A stretch of DNA of 44,625 nucleotides from a virus. The DNA lies in IMG/VR virus record IMGVR_UViG_3300026521_000002, positions 1-44,625 of that record; one strand, given 5' to 3'. The notes under the pieces are model-generated. The model had not been told where the DNA came from. It made no database searches and worked only from the letters and a program-made list of their open reading frames with translations. Positions 3,374 through 36,154 of the stretch are shown one piece after another. The position numbers and the translations under genes are program-made. Each line of letters starts with the position of its first letter. The first letter of the stretch is position 1.

Positions 3374-4579
3374 TTAGTATATACCAAGTGCTTGGCTAGT
3401 AGAAGCTACAGAAGATGAAGCATCAAAAACACTACGCTTCTTTTTCTTCTGTAAACCTGTAGCACCACCTACACCAGTTGTTTGTATCTGCTCAGGAGCT
3501 GTTGCTGAACTTAAAGCATCTGGAGCTGACTTACGTCTCTCTTCAAGTACATTATATCTAGCTATCTCCTGACGCTCTTTTATGTAGTTATTCCAGTCAG
3601 CTTTAGCTGCTTCGTAGTCTACACCTGATTTTAAACTATATCTTTTAAAGTTAGCATCATAGTTTAAACCTTTACGCTCTAAAGCTGCATCATACTCTGC
3701 TTGGTTCCTGAAACCATTACTGGCTTTAACACCATAAGCTCTTTTAGCTACACCAATACGTTTCTCTGTAATTGTTTTACCAGGTGCTTTCTTAACAGGA
3801 ATTATTTTATTCATAATACTCTTAGCAGGTTTTTCTATTATTTCTTTAGTTATCTTTTTTGATAATTTCTCAGCTGGTTTTTCTATAAACTTTCTTACAG
3901 GCTCAGAAATAATATCTATACCTTTATTAATAGGCTTACCTACATCATGTACAATGTCACCTGTGAAATTATATACATCCTCACCTAGGTTTTTAGTGAA
4001 ATCTGTAAGTGGTTTAAGTGTCTTCCTAGTGTCTTTATAAGCCTTCTTAATAGCAAGTTTAGAAGTACCTACAGGATGTCTAGTAAATCTCTCAGCTTTC
4101 TTAACAGGTTTAGATACTTCCTTAATAGTATCCTTTACTGCTTTAACTGTAGTCTTCTTAGTGTCTGTGTAAACCTTCTTACCTGCCTTCTTAGTTGTCT
4201 TAATAGGATGTCTAGTAAATCTCTCAGCTTTCTTAAAAGGACTCTTAATATGTTTCGATATACTAAACTTAGGCATATGTAGCTTACTTAGAGGCGACTT
4301 AACCTTCTTAAAAGGAGATTTTAGTTTTATACTTAATTTATTCATCTGTTTTTTACTAAGCGTAGCTGAAATCTGCTTCTTAGTATCTTTATAACCTTTA
4401 ACTGCAGTCTTCTTAGTGTCTTTATAAGCTTTAACTGTAGTCTTCTTAGTATCCTTATAAGCCTTCTTACCTACCTTCTTCGTATCTTTGTAAGACTTCT
4501 TACCTGCCTTCTTAGTTGTCTTAATAGGATGCTTTACAGCACCTTTAGTTTTCTTATAGATCTTCTTTAACCAACCCAT
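3374..4579 (-). CDS. Lysine-rich repeat protein, probable virion protein in the T7 gp7.3 position
   Basis: A 401-residue, strongly basic protein. The first 70 residues are short repeats built on YKDTKK (KKSYKDTKKVGKKAYKDTKK and so on). A second copy of the block, HPIKTTKKAGKKVYTDTKK, occurs at about residues 120-145 and a third degenerate one near 165. The middle resembles an amphipathic helical stretch, and the C-terminus is serine- and glycine-rich (ASSSVASTSQALGIY). T7 gp7.3, a minor virion/tail assembly protein between genes 6 and 8, is much shorter (about 99 residues) but also starts with lysine-rich repeats and ends in a glycine/serine tail. I therefore infer the same slot, without claiming proven homology. 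The polylysine character could bind DNA or the inner membrane. Confidence 0.55.
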   Translation of the reverse strand: MGWLKKIYKKTKGAVKHPIKTTKKAGKKSYKDTKKVGKKAYKDTKKTTVKAYKDTKKTAVKGYKDTKKQISATLSKKQMNKLSIKLKSPFKKVKSPLSKLHMPKFSISKHIKSPFKKAERFTRHPIKTTKKAGKKVYTDTKKTTVKAVKDTIKEVSKPVKKAERFTRHPVGTSKLAIKKAYKDTRKTLKPLTDFTKNLGEDVYNFTGDIVHDVGKPINKGIDIISEPVRKFIEKPAEKLSKKITKEIIEKPAKSIMNKIIPVKKAPGKTITEKRIGVAKRAYGVKASNGFRNQAEYDAALERKGLNYDANFKRYSLKSGVDYEAAKADWNNYIKERQEIARYNVLEERRKSAPDALSSATAPEQIQTTGVGGATGLQKKKKRSVFDASSSVASTSQALGIY

Positions 4580-8346: not shown

Positions 8347-8720
8347 TTTTTCTCCTTAGCGTTATAATAGTGTCCTGAGCTTATATGACGTAACCTATGG
8401 CAGTTAGGACATAATAGAACACATTTAGATACTTCTACTAACACCTTATCTAAAGATGCTGTAGATAACATTTGAGATATAGGTCTAGACTTATTATTTG
8501 GTTTAATATGATGCCAATCAAAGAATCCTGGATTTGGATGTGTAATACCACAATCCTTACAAGCATTACCAACTGCATTAACTATTAATCTCTGTCTTTC
8601 TAACCTCTTCCTTCTCTTCCTAGTAGCGGTACAATCCTTACAATGTGATGTTAAACTATTTAACTTTTTATGAAAGTTATCATCCGTTAAAGTTCTTAAG
8701 CATTTTGTACACTGTTTCAT
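8343..8720 (-). CDS. HNH endonuclease inserted between nrdA and nrdB (125 aa)
   Basis: The start at 8720 (MKQCTKCLRTLTDDNFHKK) forms an ATGA overlap with the nrdA stop. An N-terminal zinc knuckle pair (CTKC, CKDC) is followed by a basic linker, CKDCGITHPNPGFFDWHHIK (the HH of the HNH box) and VLLCPNCHRLRH, the closing C-x2-C-H of a classic zinc-HNH nuclease. Such small genes between conserved phage genes are typical free-standing homing endonucleases that cut the same locus in rivals lacking the insert. Its final codons (KEKK then TGA) contain AAGGAG, the ribosome site for nrdB, with a 4-base overlap, so the insertion keeps nrdB translatable. Confidence 0.9.
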   Translation of the reverse strand: MKQCTKCLRTLTDDNFHKKLNSLTSHCKDCTATRKRRKRLERQRLIVNAVGNACKDCGITHPNPGFFDWHHIKPNNKSRPISQMLSTASLDKVLVEVSKCVLLCPNCHRLRHISSGHYYNAKEKK

Positions 8721-10465
8721 TGGCAAGAAATACACTCATCAACTGCTATAATTTGTCTCTCACCACTGTTATCACCTCTGACTGCTGCAGTTGACCTACA
8801 GTAATACAGTGACTTCAATCCTTGTTTCCAAGCTCTGACATGCATATTGTATACATTAGCTACATGTTCATCAGCTGGTATAAATAGGTTAACACTCTGT
8901 GCCTGGTCTATGTAAGGTGCTCTATCACAGGCTAAATCAACTGTTACAAACTGATTGATTTCAATAGCTGTTTTGAACACATCCTTTTCATAGTCCGTTA
9001 GGAAGTCTAGGTGTTGTACTGAGCCTCCATGTTTTACTATAGATTTCCATATGTCTTCATAGCTACTCTTAAACACACTACCATCTTGTATTATACTATA
9101 CAAATAATCAGTTATAATCCTATCAAGATACTTATTCTTTATTGTATAACTACCTATATTAGTTTTATGTAGATAACCATTAGCTAACCTAGGGTCTATA
9201 CCTTGGCTTGTGGCATTACACAAAGTACTTATAGACGCTGTTGGTGCTATAGATGTAGAATGTGTATTCCTAGACATAGTATCTGTTGCTTCACTGATAG
9301 GTGATTGTCCAAATGTTAATGCAGCTTTTAAATCAGCAACTACAGTAGCCTCTTTGATAGCTTTAAAGATTAACATATTCAACCCTTTAGCCATAGGGCT
9401 TTCCCAAGGTAGCATGTTATTCTGTAGTAAGCTATGGAACCCCATTACACCTAAGCCGATACTTCTCTCATATATAGCTGACTTCCTAGGAGCTTCAAAC
9501 CCTGGCATAGACTCTGTTTCATCTATAAACTCCTGTAGTACGTTATCTAAGAACCTTGTACAGTCATAAGCTACCTGTTCTATATCATCTTTGTATTCAT
9601 CCCAGTACTCTAGGTTTAGACTACCAAGACAACAAACACCTGTGTAACCTGGTTCTGTATGTAGTGTTATCTCAGCACACAGGTTACTCATAGAGACTTC
9701 CCATTGCTTTTGTTTGTATTCTTCTGGTACAGCTCTGTTTACATTGTCTTTAAACAACATGTAAGGCTCTCCAGTTTCCATACGAGTTGTTAGGATTCTC
9801 TTGAACAGGTCAAAAGCATCTACTGTTTTAACTATTTTACCATCCTTAGGTGATACAAGATTCCAAGAACCTCTAGCTTCAACAGCTTCCATGAAAGCAT
9901 CAGGAATAACTACACCATGGTGAACATTTATACTTCTTCTGTTTGTATCACCTGTTGGTCTTCTAACGTCGATGAACTCTTCGATTTCAGGGTGGCTAAC
10001 ATCAAGGTATACTGCTTGTGAAGCTCTTCGTAACCCTCCTTGACTAACTGCAAGTGTTGAGCTGTCTGAGACTTTGATAAATGGTATAATCCCTGAACTT
10101 TTACCATGTGTTCCAACGACAGCTCCAAGTTCTCTAACTGAGCTCCAAGAAGTTCCAATTCCTCCACCCTCTGCTCCAAGATTGTTATTTTCTGTAAATA
10201 CATTGAATATTCCTTGTTTATCATCTGGTACTTCGTTAGTATAGCAGCTGATAGGTAGTTTACCTGGACTGCTTATAGGTGTGCTAGGGTGGAACCAGTA
10301 GTTGTTTATGTATTGTTTTATACGCTCTGCATGAGCTAAATCATCTGTGTACTTTGACATACGGTTTAACCAGCTGCTGTAGTCCTCACCATGTCTAAAG
10401 TATCTTTCTTTATATAGGTCTTGGCTAAATGCCTGTAAGCCTTGCCATCCTCTATCTATTCTCAT
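8717..10465 (-). CDS. nrdA: Ribonucleoside-diphosphate reductase large subunit, class I, no ATP cone
   Basis: Converts ribonucleoside diphosphates to deoxy forms for phage DNA synthesis. Active-site parts are visible: LPISCYTNEV (first redox Cys), GGGIGTSWSSVRELG (substrate loop), SNLCAEITL (radical Cys and Glu), GVCCLGSLNLE (second redox Cys), LKSLYYCRS (the radical-transfer Tyr pair) and the C-terminal CISCQ swinging thiols. At 582 residues it lacks the regulatory ATP cone of bacterial NrdA (about 760), so dATP feedback inhibition is probably lost, a common phage trait. The ATG at 10465 gives MRIDRGWQGLQAF. The gene stop overlaps the HNH gene start. Confidence 0.96.
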   Translation of the reverse strand: MRIDRGWQGLQAFSQDLYKERYFRHGEDYSSWLNRMSKYTDDLAHAERIKQYINNYWFHPSTPISSPGKLPISCYTNEVPDDKQGIFNVFTENNNLGAEGGGIGTSWSSVRELGAVVGTHGKSSGIIPFIKVSDSSTLAVSQGGLRRASQAVYLDVSHPEIEEFIDVRRPTGDTNRRSINVHHGVVIPDAFMEAVEARGSWNLVSPKDGKIVKTVDAFDLFKRILTTRMETGEPYMLFKDNVNRAVPEEYKQKQWEVSMSNLCAEITLHTEPGYTGVCCLGSLNLEYWDEYKDDIEQVAYDCTRFLDNVLQEFIDETESMPGFEAPRKSAIYERSIGLGVMGFHSLLQNNMLPWESPMAKGLNMLIFKAIKEATVVADLKAALTFGQSPISEATDTMSRNTHSTSIAPTASISTLCNATSQGIDPRLANGYLHKTNIGSYTIKNKYLDRIITDYLYSIIQDGSVFKSSYEDIWKSIVKHGGSVQHLDFLTDYEKDVFKTAIEINQFVTVDLACDRAPYIDQAQSVNLFIPADEHVANVYNMHVRAWKQGLKSLYYCRSTAAVRGDNSGERQIIAVDECISCQ

Positions 10466-31695: not shown

Positions 31696-34287
31696 CTATT
31701 TAGTGTTCTTAATATCCTTTGTGTATATACCTTCTGCATATCTATAAGGATTTCTCTCATCTAGCTCATTACCTAAACCAGACCACAATTTGCTCCATAA
31801 GCCTTTATGATGCTCATTATCCCATGAAGCTGAAGCTGTTCTTATGTCTTGTATATCTTTAATACGTCTCTTAAAATCAGCTACAGATACAGCACCTATT
31901 CGTATACCATGCTCATCATCTATAGTTACATTACCTCTTATTACATTTATAGCACATCCATCAGGAATATCTCCTAATGCTATATCTACAATCTCTTGGT
32001 TACTATTGAAAGTCTCTAAGAATTTATGTGAAACTTTATGTTCACCTTCTCCAAACTCATCAACACCAAAAGACTTCTCTAGAATATCCATATCGACATG
32101 ACCTGTTGTAAGTAACTGTAGGTTAACCTCTTCTCTGAAAGCATTAACATCATTATACTGTATTGTTTCTTCAAAATCTTTAACTTCTTGAGGTATATTA
32201 CCTCTAGCTATAGTAAGTGTCTTACCAGCATCTTCTCTAGCTTGTAGTATATCTTTATACTCTTGTTTGGAAGTAGCTCTATTCAATAACTGTAATTTAA
32301 CTTTATCATCTGTAGATAGAGAACTCTTTAATATACTACTATCTATCTCTGATGTATACTTTAATAATGTAGCTGCTTGTTCTCCCCAAGCCTCTTCATC
32401 TTCTATTGTCAATAAGCTATTAAATCTCTGTAGTAAATCAGTTTTAAACTTAGGCTTTAAGTACTCTGGATTACTATTGATTAATACCTCTAGACTAGCT
32501 ATCTCTCCGTTAGCCATAGCTTCATTCCACTTAGAGTCTAAACTCTTCTTCATAGAGTCTTTAAATATATCAGGTACATTACTTAAGTTCATAGGTCTTC
32601 CTGTGCTCTGTTCTTCATCTTCTATAAACTTATTAATTAAGAATTTAACTACATACTTATTCTTCTCATCAGCAATCTTATCATCTGAGTACCCTAGTGC
32701 CTTCATAGAAGATACAAACTTACTATCATCTAACCCTTGGATACCTGAAGTAACAACATCTTGTATATTATTAGCCATTATTGTAGTTGTATCTATAGCT
32801 GTTAGTGTTGATGGTATCTCTGTTGTATACGCCTTTACTTCTTTAATATAGTTCTTAGCTTCTTTATCTTGAGCAGCTTTAACTTTATTCCTATGAAGTA
32901 CATCTTTCTTTTCTATAGCACCAAGTAATCTATTTAATTCACTCTTATATTTCATGAAACTAGGTGATGCTACAAGAACATCAGACTCTAAATCTTTTGT
33001 ATTATCAATAGCTTTTATTACGTCTGAAGCTTCATCAAGTCTATCATGAACACCTTGGTACTTATAGTAATCTGGTGTATCTATAATATGTTTAGCAGCT
33101 GTTTCGTAATCACCTTCATTAAAAGCTTTAACCCATGTGTAGTCTTTCTTAACATCTCCACGATACATAGCTGCAACTAGAACAGCTTGTACACTTTCAG
33201 GGTAACCATCAAAGTTCTTAAAGTGTTTCTTAGCTTTAGCTGTAAAAGCATCTACAACATCTGGGAAAGGTTTATCGGCATATTCACCTGTTTGTCCTAC
33301 ACCAGTTGTTTGGATTCCTTTAGCATCAGTATATACATTAGGATTGTAACCTTCCTTCATAACTATATACTTCTCAATGTATGTTAGTTCTTTATTATAT
33401 TTATTACTTACCATAGCTACAGCATCTACTGCGTGATACGAACCATCTGAACCTACTTGAGGGTTACTAACTGGCTGAGTATTCTCCATGCTTGGTATTG
33501 TAGGCTCACCTGAGCTCATAGCTTTTAACTCATTTAGTCTTTTAGTTAATACTTCTTTATTATCACTAAATGCACTTAAATTATCTGTAATTACTTTAAG
33601 TATGTCGTCTACAGGAGAATCATTGTTAGCTAAACCTTCTTGTATATTTTCTGTATTCTTTAAAATCTCTACCAGAGGTACATTAGTGTTGTTGAAGTCC
33701 TCTGTAATTGTAGCTTGTAGTAACCTGTTTAATCTAACAGCATTTGCTTTCTTATAGTCTTTAACTGCTCCTGTACCCCATGTTTTTAAATCTGGAGATA
33801 ATACAGTATCTAAGCCATTTAATACATCCTTCTTCTCACTATCAGATAACTTATATTTAGCTATTGTTTGTAGTTGCCCAGCCTCAAAGTCTTGTAGCAT
33901 TTTAATCTTATTAGCGTTAGAGAATACACTAGGGTCGTAGTCTTCTACAGATGTATCTGCTTCTGCTACCATTAGTCCATTTTTAAACTTAGTATAACTT
34001 GCTTTGATTTCATTTTTAGCTGATAGTATTCTATCCTTAGAGTCTACCTCAGCTTGTCTAGCTTCCTGTGCATCCATTTTATGTGCCTGTAGTGCTCTGT
34101 TAGAAGCCATACCTGCTATAGATACTACAGAAGACATGATACTATCAAAAGCGTTCCATGAGGGTCTAGACATACCTTCATGTGCTACAGATGTATCATG
34201 TCTCTTAGGTGCTCTTATTCTCTCAGAGTAGTTTAAACTCTCTGCATCTTTATTCTCTTTAGTATATATTAATAAATCATTTGCCAT
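31696..34287 (-). CDS. Internal virion protein with GH24-type lysozyme domain, 863 aa
   Basis: Residues of about 310-410 form a T4-lysozyme-like (GH24) domain: EKYIVMKEGYNPNVYTDAKG with the catalytic Glu, then IQTTGVGQTGEY (the T-x-G-G-T type glycan-binding turn) and the helical end AVLVAAMYRGDVKK. The rest is long and helical, as in gp15 of T7, and the N-terminus is hydrophilic. The domain probably digests peptidoglycan so that the ejection tube can cross the wall, the job of the transglycosylase in T7 gp16. Located between the gp14- and gp16-like genes. Confidence 0.8.
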   Translation of the reverse strand: MANDLLIYTKENKDAESLNYSERIRAPKRHDTSVAHEGMSRPSWNAFDSIMSSVVSIAGMASNRALQAHKMDAQEARQAEVDSKDRILSAKNEIKASYTKFKNGLMVAEADTSVEDYDPSVFSNANKIKMLQDFEAGQLQTIAKYKLSDSEKKDVLNGLDTVLSPDLKTWGTGAVKDYKKANAVRLNRLLQATITEDFNNTNVPLVEILKNTENIQEGLANNDSPVDDILKVITDNLSAFSDNKEVLTKRLNELKAMSSGEPTIPSMENTQPVSNPQVGSDGSYHAVDAVAMVSNKYNKELTYIEKYIVMKEGYNPNVYTDAKGIQTTGVGQTGEYADKPFPDVVDAFTAKAKKHFKNFDGYPESVQAVLVAAMYRGDVKKDYTWVKAFNEGDYETAAKHIIDTPDYYKYQGVHDRLDEASDVIKAIDNTKDLESDVLVASPSFMKYKSELNRLLGAIEKKDVLHRNKVKAAQDKEAKNYIKEVKAYTTEIPSTLTAIDTTTIMANNIQDVVTSGIQGLDDSKFVSSMKALGYSDDKIADEKNKYVVKFLINKFIEDEEQSTGRPMNLSNVPDIFKDSMKKSLDSKWNEAMANGEIASLEVLINSNPEYLKPKFKTDLLQRFNSLLTIEDEEAWGEQAATLLKYTSEIDSSILKSSLSTDDKVKLQLLNRATSKQEYKDILQAREDAGKTLTIARGNIPQEVKDFEETIQYNDVNAFREEVNLQLLTTGHVDMDILEKSFGVDEFGEGEHKVSHKFLETFNSNQEIVDIALGDIPDGCAINVIRGNVTIDDEHGIRIGAVSVADFKRRIKDIQDIRTASASWDNEHHKGLWSKLWSGLGNELDERNPYRYAEGIYTKDIKNTK

Positions 34288-35054: not shown

Positions 35055-35450
35055 CTATAGCTGCCTAGTGAACTTAAAAGCTTCTACATCAAAGTTAGGG
35101 CATGTCTTATGACTTACTGCATAATGTCCTATAACCTTTCTTGTATCCACTTCAAACTCTCTTATTAATTTCTCTAAGCTATTGAATTGCATAGGTGTGA
35201 AATTATCCTTACCTATCAAACAGATACCAACATAATGATTGTATCCTTTAGCATGAGCACCTTTTTTACCTAATGGTCGTCCTTCCTGAACTACACCATT
35301 TTCTAATATAACATAGTGATACCCTATACCTGACCAGCCACGTTCCTTATGCCAACGGTCAATGGTAGAAGCATCATCACCTCTACCTTGAGGACTGTCA
35401 GAACAGTGTATTACTATGCCAGGGACTTTCCCAGCGACTCTAGAGCTGTT
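35055..35450 (-). CDS. N-acetylmuramoyl-L-alanine amidase (T7 lysozyme-like), no start codon; likely frameshift product
   Basis: Cuts the amide bond of peptidoglycan at lysis; in T7 (gp3.5) it also inhibits the phage RNA polymerase. The zinc-amidase motifs are all present: GIVIHCSDSPQGRGD (first His ligand), IDRWHKERGWSGIGYHYVI, KGAHAKGYNHYVGICLIG, and GHYAVSHKTCPNFD (second His ligand, catalytic Lys and Cys ligand). The frame is open from 35450 to a TAG at 35055-35057, but holds no ATG, GTG or TTG before the conserved core. The upstream 74-residue gene is in the +1-offset frame and overlaps by 37 bases with a GGGAAAG heptamer in the right register. A -1 shift there yields a 194-residue protein: 71 residues of the upstream gene plus 123 from here, joining LGK to VPGIVIHC. 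An ATA start at 35415-35417 is the alternative but would remove part of the first strand. Confidence 0.85.
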   Translation of the reverse strand, partial: NSSRVAGKVPGIVIHCSDSPQGRGDDASTIDRWHKERGWSGIGYHYVILENGVVQEGRPLGKKGAHAKGYNHYVGICLIGKDNFTPMQFNSLEKLIREFEVDTRKVIGHYAVSHKTCPNFDVEAFKFTRQL

Positions 35451-35638
35451 TTAAACACATCCTGAGTTGTAGGATTCTGTTTGGATTCTGCTATACCATT
35501 AATCATAGTTTTAGCTAAATCTTTGTTTATACCACCCTTTGTAGAGTCTAATAGTTTGTTAACGCCTATAGCCACTAACTGCTCAGCAGCTTTACTAGAT
35601 GCTATCTTTAATAATAGTTTTATAATGAATGTAATCAT
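35414..35638 (-). CDS. Small membrane-type protein upstream of amidase (74 aa), zero-frame partner
   Basis: The first 14 residues (MITFIIKLLLKIAS) are hydrophobic with two lysines, followed by AAEQLVAIGVNKLLDSTKGG and a polar end. The N-terminus could be a short signal anchor or amphipathic membrane helix. ATG at 35638 has AGGAGG in front. It follows the XhlA-like holin gene. By itself it could be a pinholin or antiholin; as the first part of a frameshift fusion it would tether the amidase to the membrane (a signal-arrest-type endolysin). No family recognised. Confidence 0.7.
   Translation of the reverse strand: MITFIIKLLLKIASSKAAEQLVAIGVNKLLDSTKGGINKDLAKTMINGIAESKQNPTTQDVFKTALESLGKSLA
35426..35432 (-). 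promoter_or_regulatory. Candidate -1 ribosomal frameshift site G GGA AAG
   Basis: In the reading frame of the 74-residue gene, the codons CTG GGA AAG give the X XXY YYZ heptamer GGGAAAG, the same heptamer known to shift ribosomes in the lambda G/GT tail genes. It lies three codons before the zero-frame TAG. A -1 slip enters the amidase frame exactly. About 18 bases downstream ACTGT/ACAGT can pair (5 bp, 4-base loop), a weak stimulatory structure at best. Confidence 0.65.
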
Positions 35639-35644
35639 AATACA

Positions 35645-35944
35645 CTATCCTCCTAATAATATTTTTAAATTGTCTAATCCGATATACCCTAATAGCATAC
35701 CAACACCAGATACAACATAAACCAGTTTACTTAATTTAGCAACCTCTAGCTCTATTGTATCATACTTTTTCATCTCTGCAACATCATGTTCCTTAAAGAA
35801 CTTAGTTAAGTCTTCCATCTTCTCTAACAAAGTTTTATCCCTTTCTGCTGATACAGCCTGATGTGTTTCAATCATACGTACCCTATCGAACAGTTCGTTA
35901 AGGTCTTTCTTCATATCATGTATCACGATACTATCTTCTTCCAT
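35645..35944 (-). CDS. XhlA-like holin or holin-associated protein (99 aa)
   Basis: A charged coiled-coil N-terminal region (DMKKDLNELFDRVRMIETHQ, continuing through about residue 65) is followed by one membrane segment near the C-terminus (LVYVVSGVGMLLGYIGL). This layout matches haemolysin XhlA-type phage proteins that aid membrane disruption during lysis. It sits between the phospholipase-like gene and the amidase module, supporting a lysis role. Alternatives are a spanin-like or a virion protein. Confidence 0.65.
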   Translation of the reverse strand: MEEDSIVIHDMKKDLNELFDRVRMIETHQAVSAERDKTLLEKMEDLTKFFKEHDVAEMKKYDTIELEVAKLSKLVYVVSGVGMLLGYIGLDNLKILLGG

Positions 35945-36154
35945 TTAACACCTTTTGTAGAAATACCACCCAAAGGCTCTTACACCTAGGTACATTATAG
36001 CTGCAACAGGTTTACTGTGTTTAGCTACACACCTATAGAGTAGTATATCTGCTTGTCTTCTTGTAATTCTTTTATTTTCATATCTTCTATCATGTCTAGC
36101 ACAGCAAGAGCTCCAAGAGCCCTCTGGAAACATAGTACAGTTGTTAGTTGACAC
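35945..36154 (-). CDS. Phospholipase A2-like small protein (69 aa)
   Basis: The core reads NNCTMFPEGSWSSCCARHDR, giving the CCxxHDxxY signature of the phospholipase A2 active site (catalytic His-Asp pair), preceded by a glycine turn that could bind calcium. RRQADILLYRCV supplies the matching Asp and Cys of the second helix, and the C-terminus is a hydrophobic helix (AAIMYLGVRAFGWYFYKR). Such mini-PLA2 proteins are found in phage genomes near lysis or tail genes. The start is GTG at 36154, overlapping the preceding stop; starting at the later ATG would drop the NNCT part. Whether it acts in lysis or in entry is open. Confidence 0.7.
   Translation of the reverse strand: MSTNNCTMFPEGSWSSCCARHDRRYENKRITRRQADILLYRCVAKHSKPVAAIMYLGVRAFGWYFYKRC

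Follow-up and report, generated by a model that had tools for sequence, protein, structure and literature searches.

A T7-lysozyme-type amidase of a T7-like podovirus, predicted to be produced only through a programmed -1 frameshift

Introduction

How can a phage supply an amidase whose reading frame holds no start codon ahead of its conserved core? The question is raised by a locus on the minus strand of a 44,625-nucleotide stretch of viral DNA (IMG/VR virus record IMGVR_UViG_3300026521_000002; this whole stretch is referred to here as the window), in which the amidase frame overlaps the end of a 74-codon gene. A first-pass annotation, made from the DNA letters, had proposed that the amidase is produced only by programmed -1 frameshifting from that gene, giving a membrane-anchored endolysin. 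The timing of phage lysis is usually attributed to holins, signal-anchors or alternative starts.

The phage had been taken to be T7-like, and its gene content agrees with this: it exhibits a single-subunit RNA polymerase, a T7-type helicase-primase and terminase, and podovirus portal and tail genes. The window also carries a gene for the large subunit of ribonucleotide reductase (8717-10465, minus strand; phrog_84, 1.8e-141). The amidase locus is placed between tail-fibre-like and internal virion genes. The latter include an 863-aa internal virion-type protein (31696-34287, minus strand) with a lysozyme-like domain at residues ~283-432, for which the match to Pfam Phage_lysozyme (0.019) is below the cut-off and the identity to gp39 of Alteromonas phage H4/4 is 34% (6e-27). 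This domain lies in one continuous frame in the window, whereas the H4/4 annotation links it to the following ORF through a -1 frameshift.

Results

The zero-frame gene (35638-35414, minus strand; 74 aa) provides both the start codon and the ribosome-binding site. Its ATG is preceded by AGGAGGATAGTGTATTATG (35639..35654, minus strand), comprising AGGAGG and a spacer; AGGAGG stands 10 bases 5' of the ATG and represents a strong ribosome-binding site. In frame 0, the gene ends with CTG GGA AAG TCC CTG GCA TAG, the stop being located at 35416-35414. The slippery heptamer G_GGA_AAG (35432-35426, minus strand) sits in the codons CTG GGA AAG, three sense codons 5' of this TAG, and follows the X_XXY_YYZ pattern in the zero-frame register and within the overlap. 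The frames, coordinates and heptamer of the first-pass annotation were recomputed on the minus strand, and all agree.

GGGAAAG occurs five times in the window when both strands are counted, and not once in slippery register in the 11,950 codons of the 32 other ORFs of the window. CTG, the source of the first G of the heptamer, represents 4.7% of the leucine codons in these ORFs. One in-phase A_AAA_AAG was observed at 3860 (minus strand) in the ORF at 3374-4579 (401 aa), distant from the end of that ORF.

After a slip, the -1 frame reads GGG AAA GTC CCT GGC ATA GTA ATA CAC TGT and stays open until the stop codon at 35055-35057. This part of the fusion (35055..35426, minus strand) comprises the amidase, with 123 post-slip codons and the stop, and the predicted product has 71 + 123 = 194 residues, the length given in the first-pass annotation. 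Inspection of the frame bore out the claim that it is devoid of ATG, GTG and TTG before the conserved core: none was found in the interval from the preceding in-frame stop to the VIHC core. Such a codon first appears within the domain, and translation from there would give only a 54-aa fragment.

The -1 frame is predicted to encode a complete T7-lysozyme-type N-acetylmuramoyl-L-alanine amidase. It matches Amidase_2 (Pfam 1.8e-13, above the curated cut-off), the PHROG lysis amidase profile (2.4e-39) and T7 lysozyme 1lba (2.7e-23). In an alignment of 19 amidases, the zinc ligands and conserved residues H9, H103 and C111 of the domain are invariant, and the initiator methionine of the stand-alone enzymes aligns with the heptamer-encoded Gly-Lys or lies at most a few residues from it. 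The structure predicted for the domain from this GK on exhibits a pLDDT of 93.7 and a TM score of 0.87 with 1lba. Given that the junction falls at the place of the initiator methionine of stand-alone relatives, the whole catalytic domain would be joined to the 74-aa protein; as the domain is also confidently modelled from GK on, the shift would substitute for a start codon.

The first-pass annotation had named the alignment of related loci as a check, and two relatives were available: L002 (IMG/VR contig 3300026521_000028) and L051/L059 (IMG/VR contig 3300026521_000032). The comparative set thus consists of three loci, the window included, two of which come from one metagenome sample. In coding-frame alignments, L002 and L051 exhibit 69-75% DNA identity to the window, with a synonymous divergence of ~1 or more. 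Their amidases are respectively 74% and 73% identical to that of the window, and their 74-aa homologues 66-74%. GGGAAAG, the frame offset and the lack of an amidase start were all found to be kept in both relatives, which strongly supports the programmed -1 frameshift that had been proposed. L002 reads ACG CTG GGA AAG TAG and L051 reads TCG CTG GGA AAG TAG, with TAG immediately 3' of AAG in both. In L002, a TAA closes the -1 frame two codons 5' of GGG; as the frame opens only there, entry is confined to ~10 codons without a canonical start.

The heptamer, invariant across the two relatives, is contained in the 12-base block CGCTGGGAAAGT (35425..35436, minus strand), and no other invariant run in the three-way alignment is as long (12 of 600 columns, the next longest being 9). 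Under phase-specific rates, invariance at every position of this block has a p of ~5e-4. Upstream of the heptamer, 42/62 third positions of frame 0 are variable versus 13/62 second positions; downstream, the corresponding figures for frame -1 are 77/116 and 28/117, and in the first 40 bases past the heptamer the variation at frame -1 third positions is already 10/13. Since third-position variation shifts from frame 0 to frame -1, the heptamer marks a change of coding frame. The dN/dS values of 0.16-0.23 for the upstream 74-aa protein and 0.06-0.16 for the amidase indicate that purifying selection acts on both frames.

With regard to stimulatory elements, the RNA downstream of the heptamer folds no better than shuffles in the three genomes (z of -0.3, +1.4 and 0.0), and no structural stimulator is therefore claimed. 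No conserved downstream stem or pseudoknot was seen in these genomes, and a hairpin ~35 bases 3' of the heptamer in the window is not common to the relatives. The three loci exhibit no conserved Shine-Dalgarno-like stimulator; AGGG is present 5' of the site in L051 only.

The arrangement appears to be specific to these loci. When 131 related-amidase loci, some of them duplicates, were scanned, a canonical start (ATG, GTG or TTG) was found before the core histidine in 129, the exceptions being the two GGGAAAG relatives. When the viral collection was scanned for GGGAAAG at most 33 bases from an [IV]HC[ST][DE]-type core, 83 stretches were returned, and the right phase, amidase homology and lack of a start came together only in the same two relatives. 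Among the matches listed from this collection, none had AAAAAAG before an amidase core in the right phase and without a start. Profile searches with the 74-aa protein and with its 99-aa neighbour found no relatives besides the same two contigs, and no credible homologue of the 74-aa protein was found in named phages (E at least 6).

Another solution is found in L003, whose amidase is 76% identical to that of the window and which possesses a distant homologue (27%) of the 74-aa gene. In L003:3746-4363, this homologue and the amidase are in the same frame, with TGA and then GTG between them and GAGG upstream. L003 would thus use reinitiation, or conceivably read-through, in place of a frameshift. 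As its amidase would be made from its own GTG right after TGA, the fusion appears to be dispensable in some cousins; both solutions occur among these phages, and the heptamer is present where the start is missing.

The neighbourhood of the amidase includes a coiled-coil protein of 99 aa (35645..35944, minus strand), which has a hydrophobic segment at its C-terminus and is weakly XhlA-like. Its L003 counterpart exhibits a clearer XhlA match (3e-4), still below the Pfam cut-off. The 99-aa protein is, weakly, the best candidate for a holin-type partner in the cassette. Given this XhlA-like neighbour and its clearer counterpart in L003, the gene group may represent a lysis cassette, with the short and the amidase-fused forms working together. 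The same late gene group contains a 69-aa protein with a GTG start (35945-36154, minus strand), which matches phrog_6098 (3.9e-20), a family of unknown function, and also weakly a tail assembly chaperone profile.

A hydrophobic, membrane-anchoring N-terminus followed by a 40-residue linker had been attributed to the fusion, and neither was confirmed. The N-terminus of the 74-aa protein exhibits a hydrophobic stretch of ~12 residues that is broken up by lysines and falls short of the usual transmembrane thresholds, the best 19-residue hydropathy being 1.2. Across the three heptamer loci, these best 19-residue values are 1.06-1.21, and in the L003 homologue 1.57. The AlphaFold model of the 74-aa protein is all-helical, with four helices, and of low confidence (pLDDT 57); the linker finds no confirmation in this model or in the hydropathy. 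Membrane anchoring of the fusion is a weak possibility; no clear transmembrane helix is predicted in the 74-aa protein.

Discussion

This analysis provides good support for a programmed -1 frameshift yielding a 194-residue fusion, which we regard as very probable. From the sequence comparisons it also appears likely, with high confidence, that this T7-like podovirus uses the amidase as its late endolysin and makes it only in this way. Ribosomes would initiate at the ATG of the 74-codon gene, and most of them would read through CTG GGA AAG and terminate at TAG, giving the short protein. The remaining minority would slip one base back on G_GGA_AAG, re-read GGG AAA and enter the amidase. Slippage would yield a single 194-residue protein, and the amidase output would be a fixed fraction of the translation of the 74-codon gene.

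Slippage at this site is itself inferred; in lambda, the shift rate at G_GGA_AAG is a few per cent. The heptamer is indeed the lambda G/GT site, as the first-pass annotation had pointed out, and shifting there is sensitive to tRNA-Lys modification (PMC7618472). It is highly shift-prone in E. coli (PMC5009743). GGGAAAG is also the shift site of podovirus capsid genes (PMC7881722, PMC9965538), and for the capsid gene of Privateer, where G_GGA_AAG is the predicted site, the longer product was detected by mass spectrometry (PMC7881722).

The short 74-aa protein may take part in lysis, perhaps together with its XhlA-like neighbour at the membrane, and it may position or restrain the enzyme. A broader proposal is more tentative, and we would place it somewhat below even chances: the endolysin would be controlled solely by the obligatory -1 frameshift, the unfused protein would recruit, restrain or help export the fused enzyme, and the translational ratio would set the timing of lysis. 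If the lytic enzyme depends on obligatory recoding, the ribosome fixes both the dose of the enzyme and its fusion partner. Gene callers would list the short protein and at best a truncated amidase, and similar endolysins may therefore be missed elsewhere.

The main rival explanation is that the amidase is made by termination followed by reinitiation at a non-standard codon. In all three loci TAG adjoins the amidase frame, a TGA GTG stop-start is indeed used by L003, and a precedent exists in the lysis gene of MS2, where a 1982 proposal of frameshifting was followed in 1987 by one of termination at the overlapping gene, according to the entries cited as refs 66 and 69 in PMC5009743. Nevertheless, none of the three loci has a canonical start. 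The sole near-start column that they share reads ATA, ATT or GTT and is not conserved as an initiator, while reinitiation at the next isoleucine would delete the first strand of the predicted amidase fold. Reinitiation would also leave the invariant heptamer and its synonymous sites unexplained, and we consider it improbable. Even less credit, close to none, can be given to a decayed or mis-assembled gene, with a sequencing indel or a pseudogene behind the frame break. Assemblies commonly carry single-base breaks, but three distinct genomes with 69-75% DNA identity share this one at the same base, and its conservation in two relatives removes sequencing error as an explanation; the dN/dS of the amidase (0.06-0.16) and the retention of all zinc and catalytic residues argue against decay. 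Stop-codon reassignment was rejected: frame 0 recloses a few codons past TAG, and the amidase is in a different frame.

A different type of objection accepts the fusion as proposed and questions its role, which could be that of a virion or injection component, or of a regulator, rather than that of a lysis endolysin. T7 lysozyme also binds RNA polymerase, and the present phage has a T7-type RNA polymerase as well as a second, lysozyme-like domain in its 863-aa virion protein. The position of the gene between tail-fibre-like and internal virion genes would suit such a role, and fixed-ratio fusions are typical of structural proteins. On the other hand, the enzyme falls in PHROG lysis families, no second endolysin was found among the genes scanned, and the neighbouring coiled-coil/membrane protein is weakly XhlA-like, its positional counterpart in L003 matching XhlA better. 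We therefore consider a role outside lysis unlikely, though with an appreciable chance of being correct, and retain the lysis endolysin as the preferred reading.

Programmed -1 frameshifting and the heptamer are already known; what would be new is their use to make an endolysin. A close known enzyme is T7 lysozyme gp3.5, which shares its fold and its zinc and catalytic residues with the amidase of the window (2.7e-23; TM 0.87). Unlike the latter, gp3.5 is a soluble protein translated from a start of its own, and its gene belongs to the non-structural region. With regard to the mechanism, lambda gpG/gpGT is similar: its upstream gene likewise carries G_GGA_AAG close to the end, and a -1 shift gives a minor, C-terminally extended product. 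However, the lambda product is a tail chaperone, whereas here it is a muralytic enzyme, and the stop follows the heptamer directly in two of the three loci. The capsid extensions of T7 (10A/10B), Privateer and Kuravirus likewise pair a podovirus gene with a minor extended product, and Privateer and YF01 share the GGGAAAG heptamer with the window; there a structural protein is extended, whereas here the extension would be the sole source of the enzyme.

The literature searched yielded no endolysin for which dependence on a -1 slippery heptamer had been shown. The first-pass statement that no T7-like phage has been described with this arrangement is roughly right within that literature, with the qualification that a related case has been annotated in H4/4 (PMC5658483) and another suggested in Ms6 (PMC3111421). 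In mycobacteriophage Ms6, frameshifting at GTGA into lysA has been suggested (gp1/lysA; PMC3111421), and the lysin of lactococcal phage vML3 is cited as frameshifted (PMC10885494, ref 35). Both systems resemble the window in their overlapping lysis genes; they differ in that no slippery heptamer or comparative evidence was found for them in the literature searched, in their Gram-positive or mycobacterial hosts and, for Ms6, in a lysA that has a start. The H4/4 case (vB_AspP-H4/4 gp39/gp40, Foturvirus) also concerns a T7-like marine phage and a putative -1 frameshift involving a muralytic domain; as annotated, the shift fuses this lysozyme-like domain with an internal virion protein (PMC5658483). 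In MF278336 gp39/gp40 (L053:32835 region), A_AAA_AAG is followed at once by TAG, as GGGAAAG is in L002 and L051. In contrast to the amidase of the window, the lysozyme-like domain of H4/4 lies upstream and has its own start, and its extension gives a giant internal virion protein. The nearest precedents, namely Ms6 gp1/lysA, vML3 and H4/4 gp39/40, are thus only suggested or annotated, and the shift by which H4/4 links a lysozyme-like domain with a virion protein hints that recoded wall-cutting enzymes may be more numerous than the records indicate.
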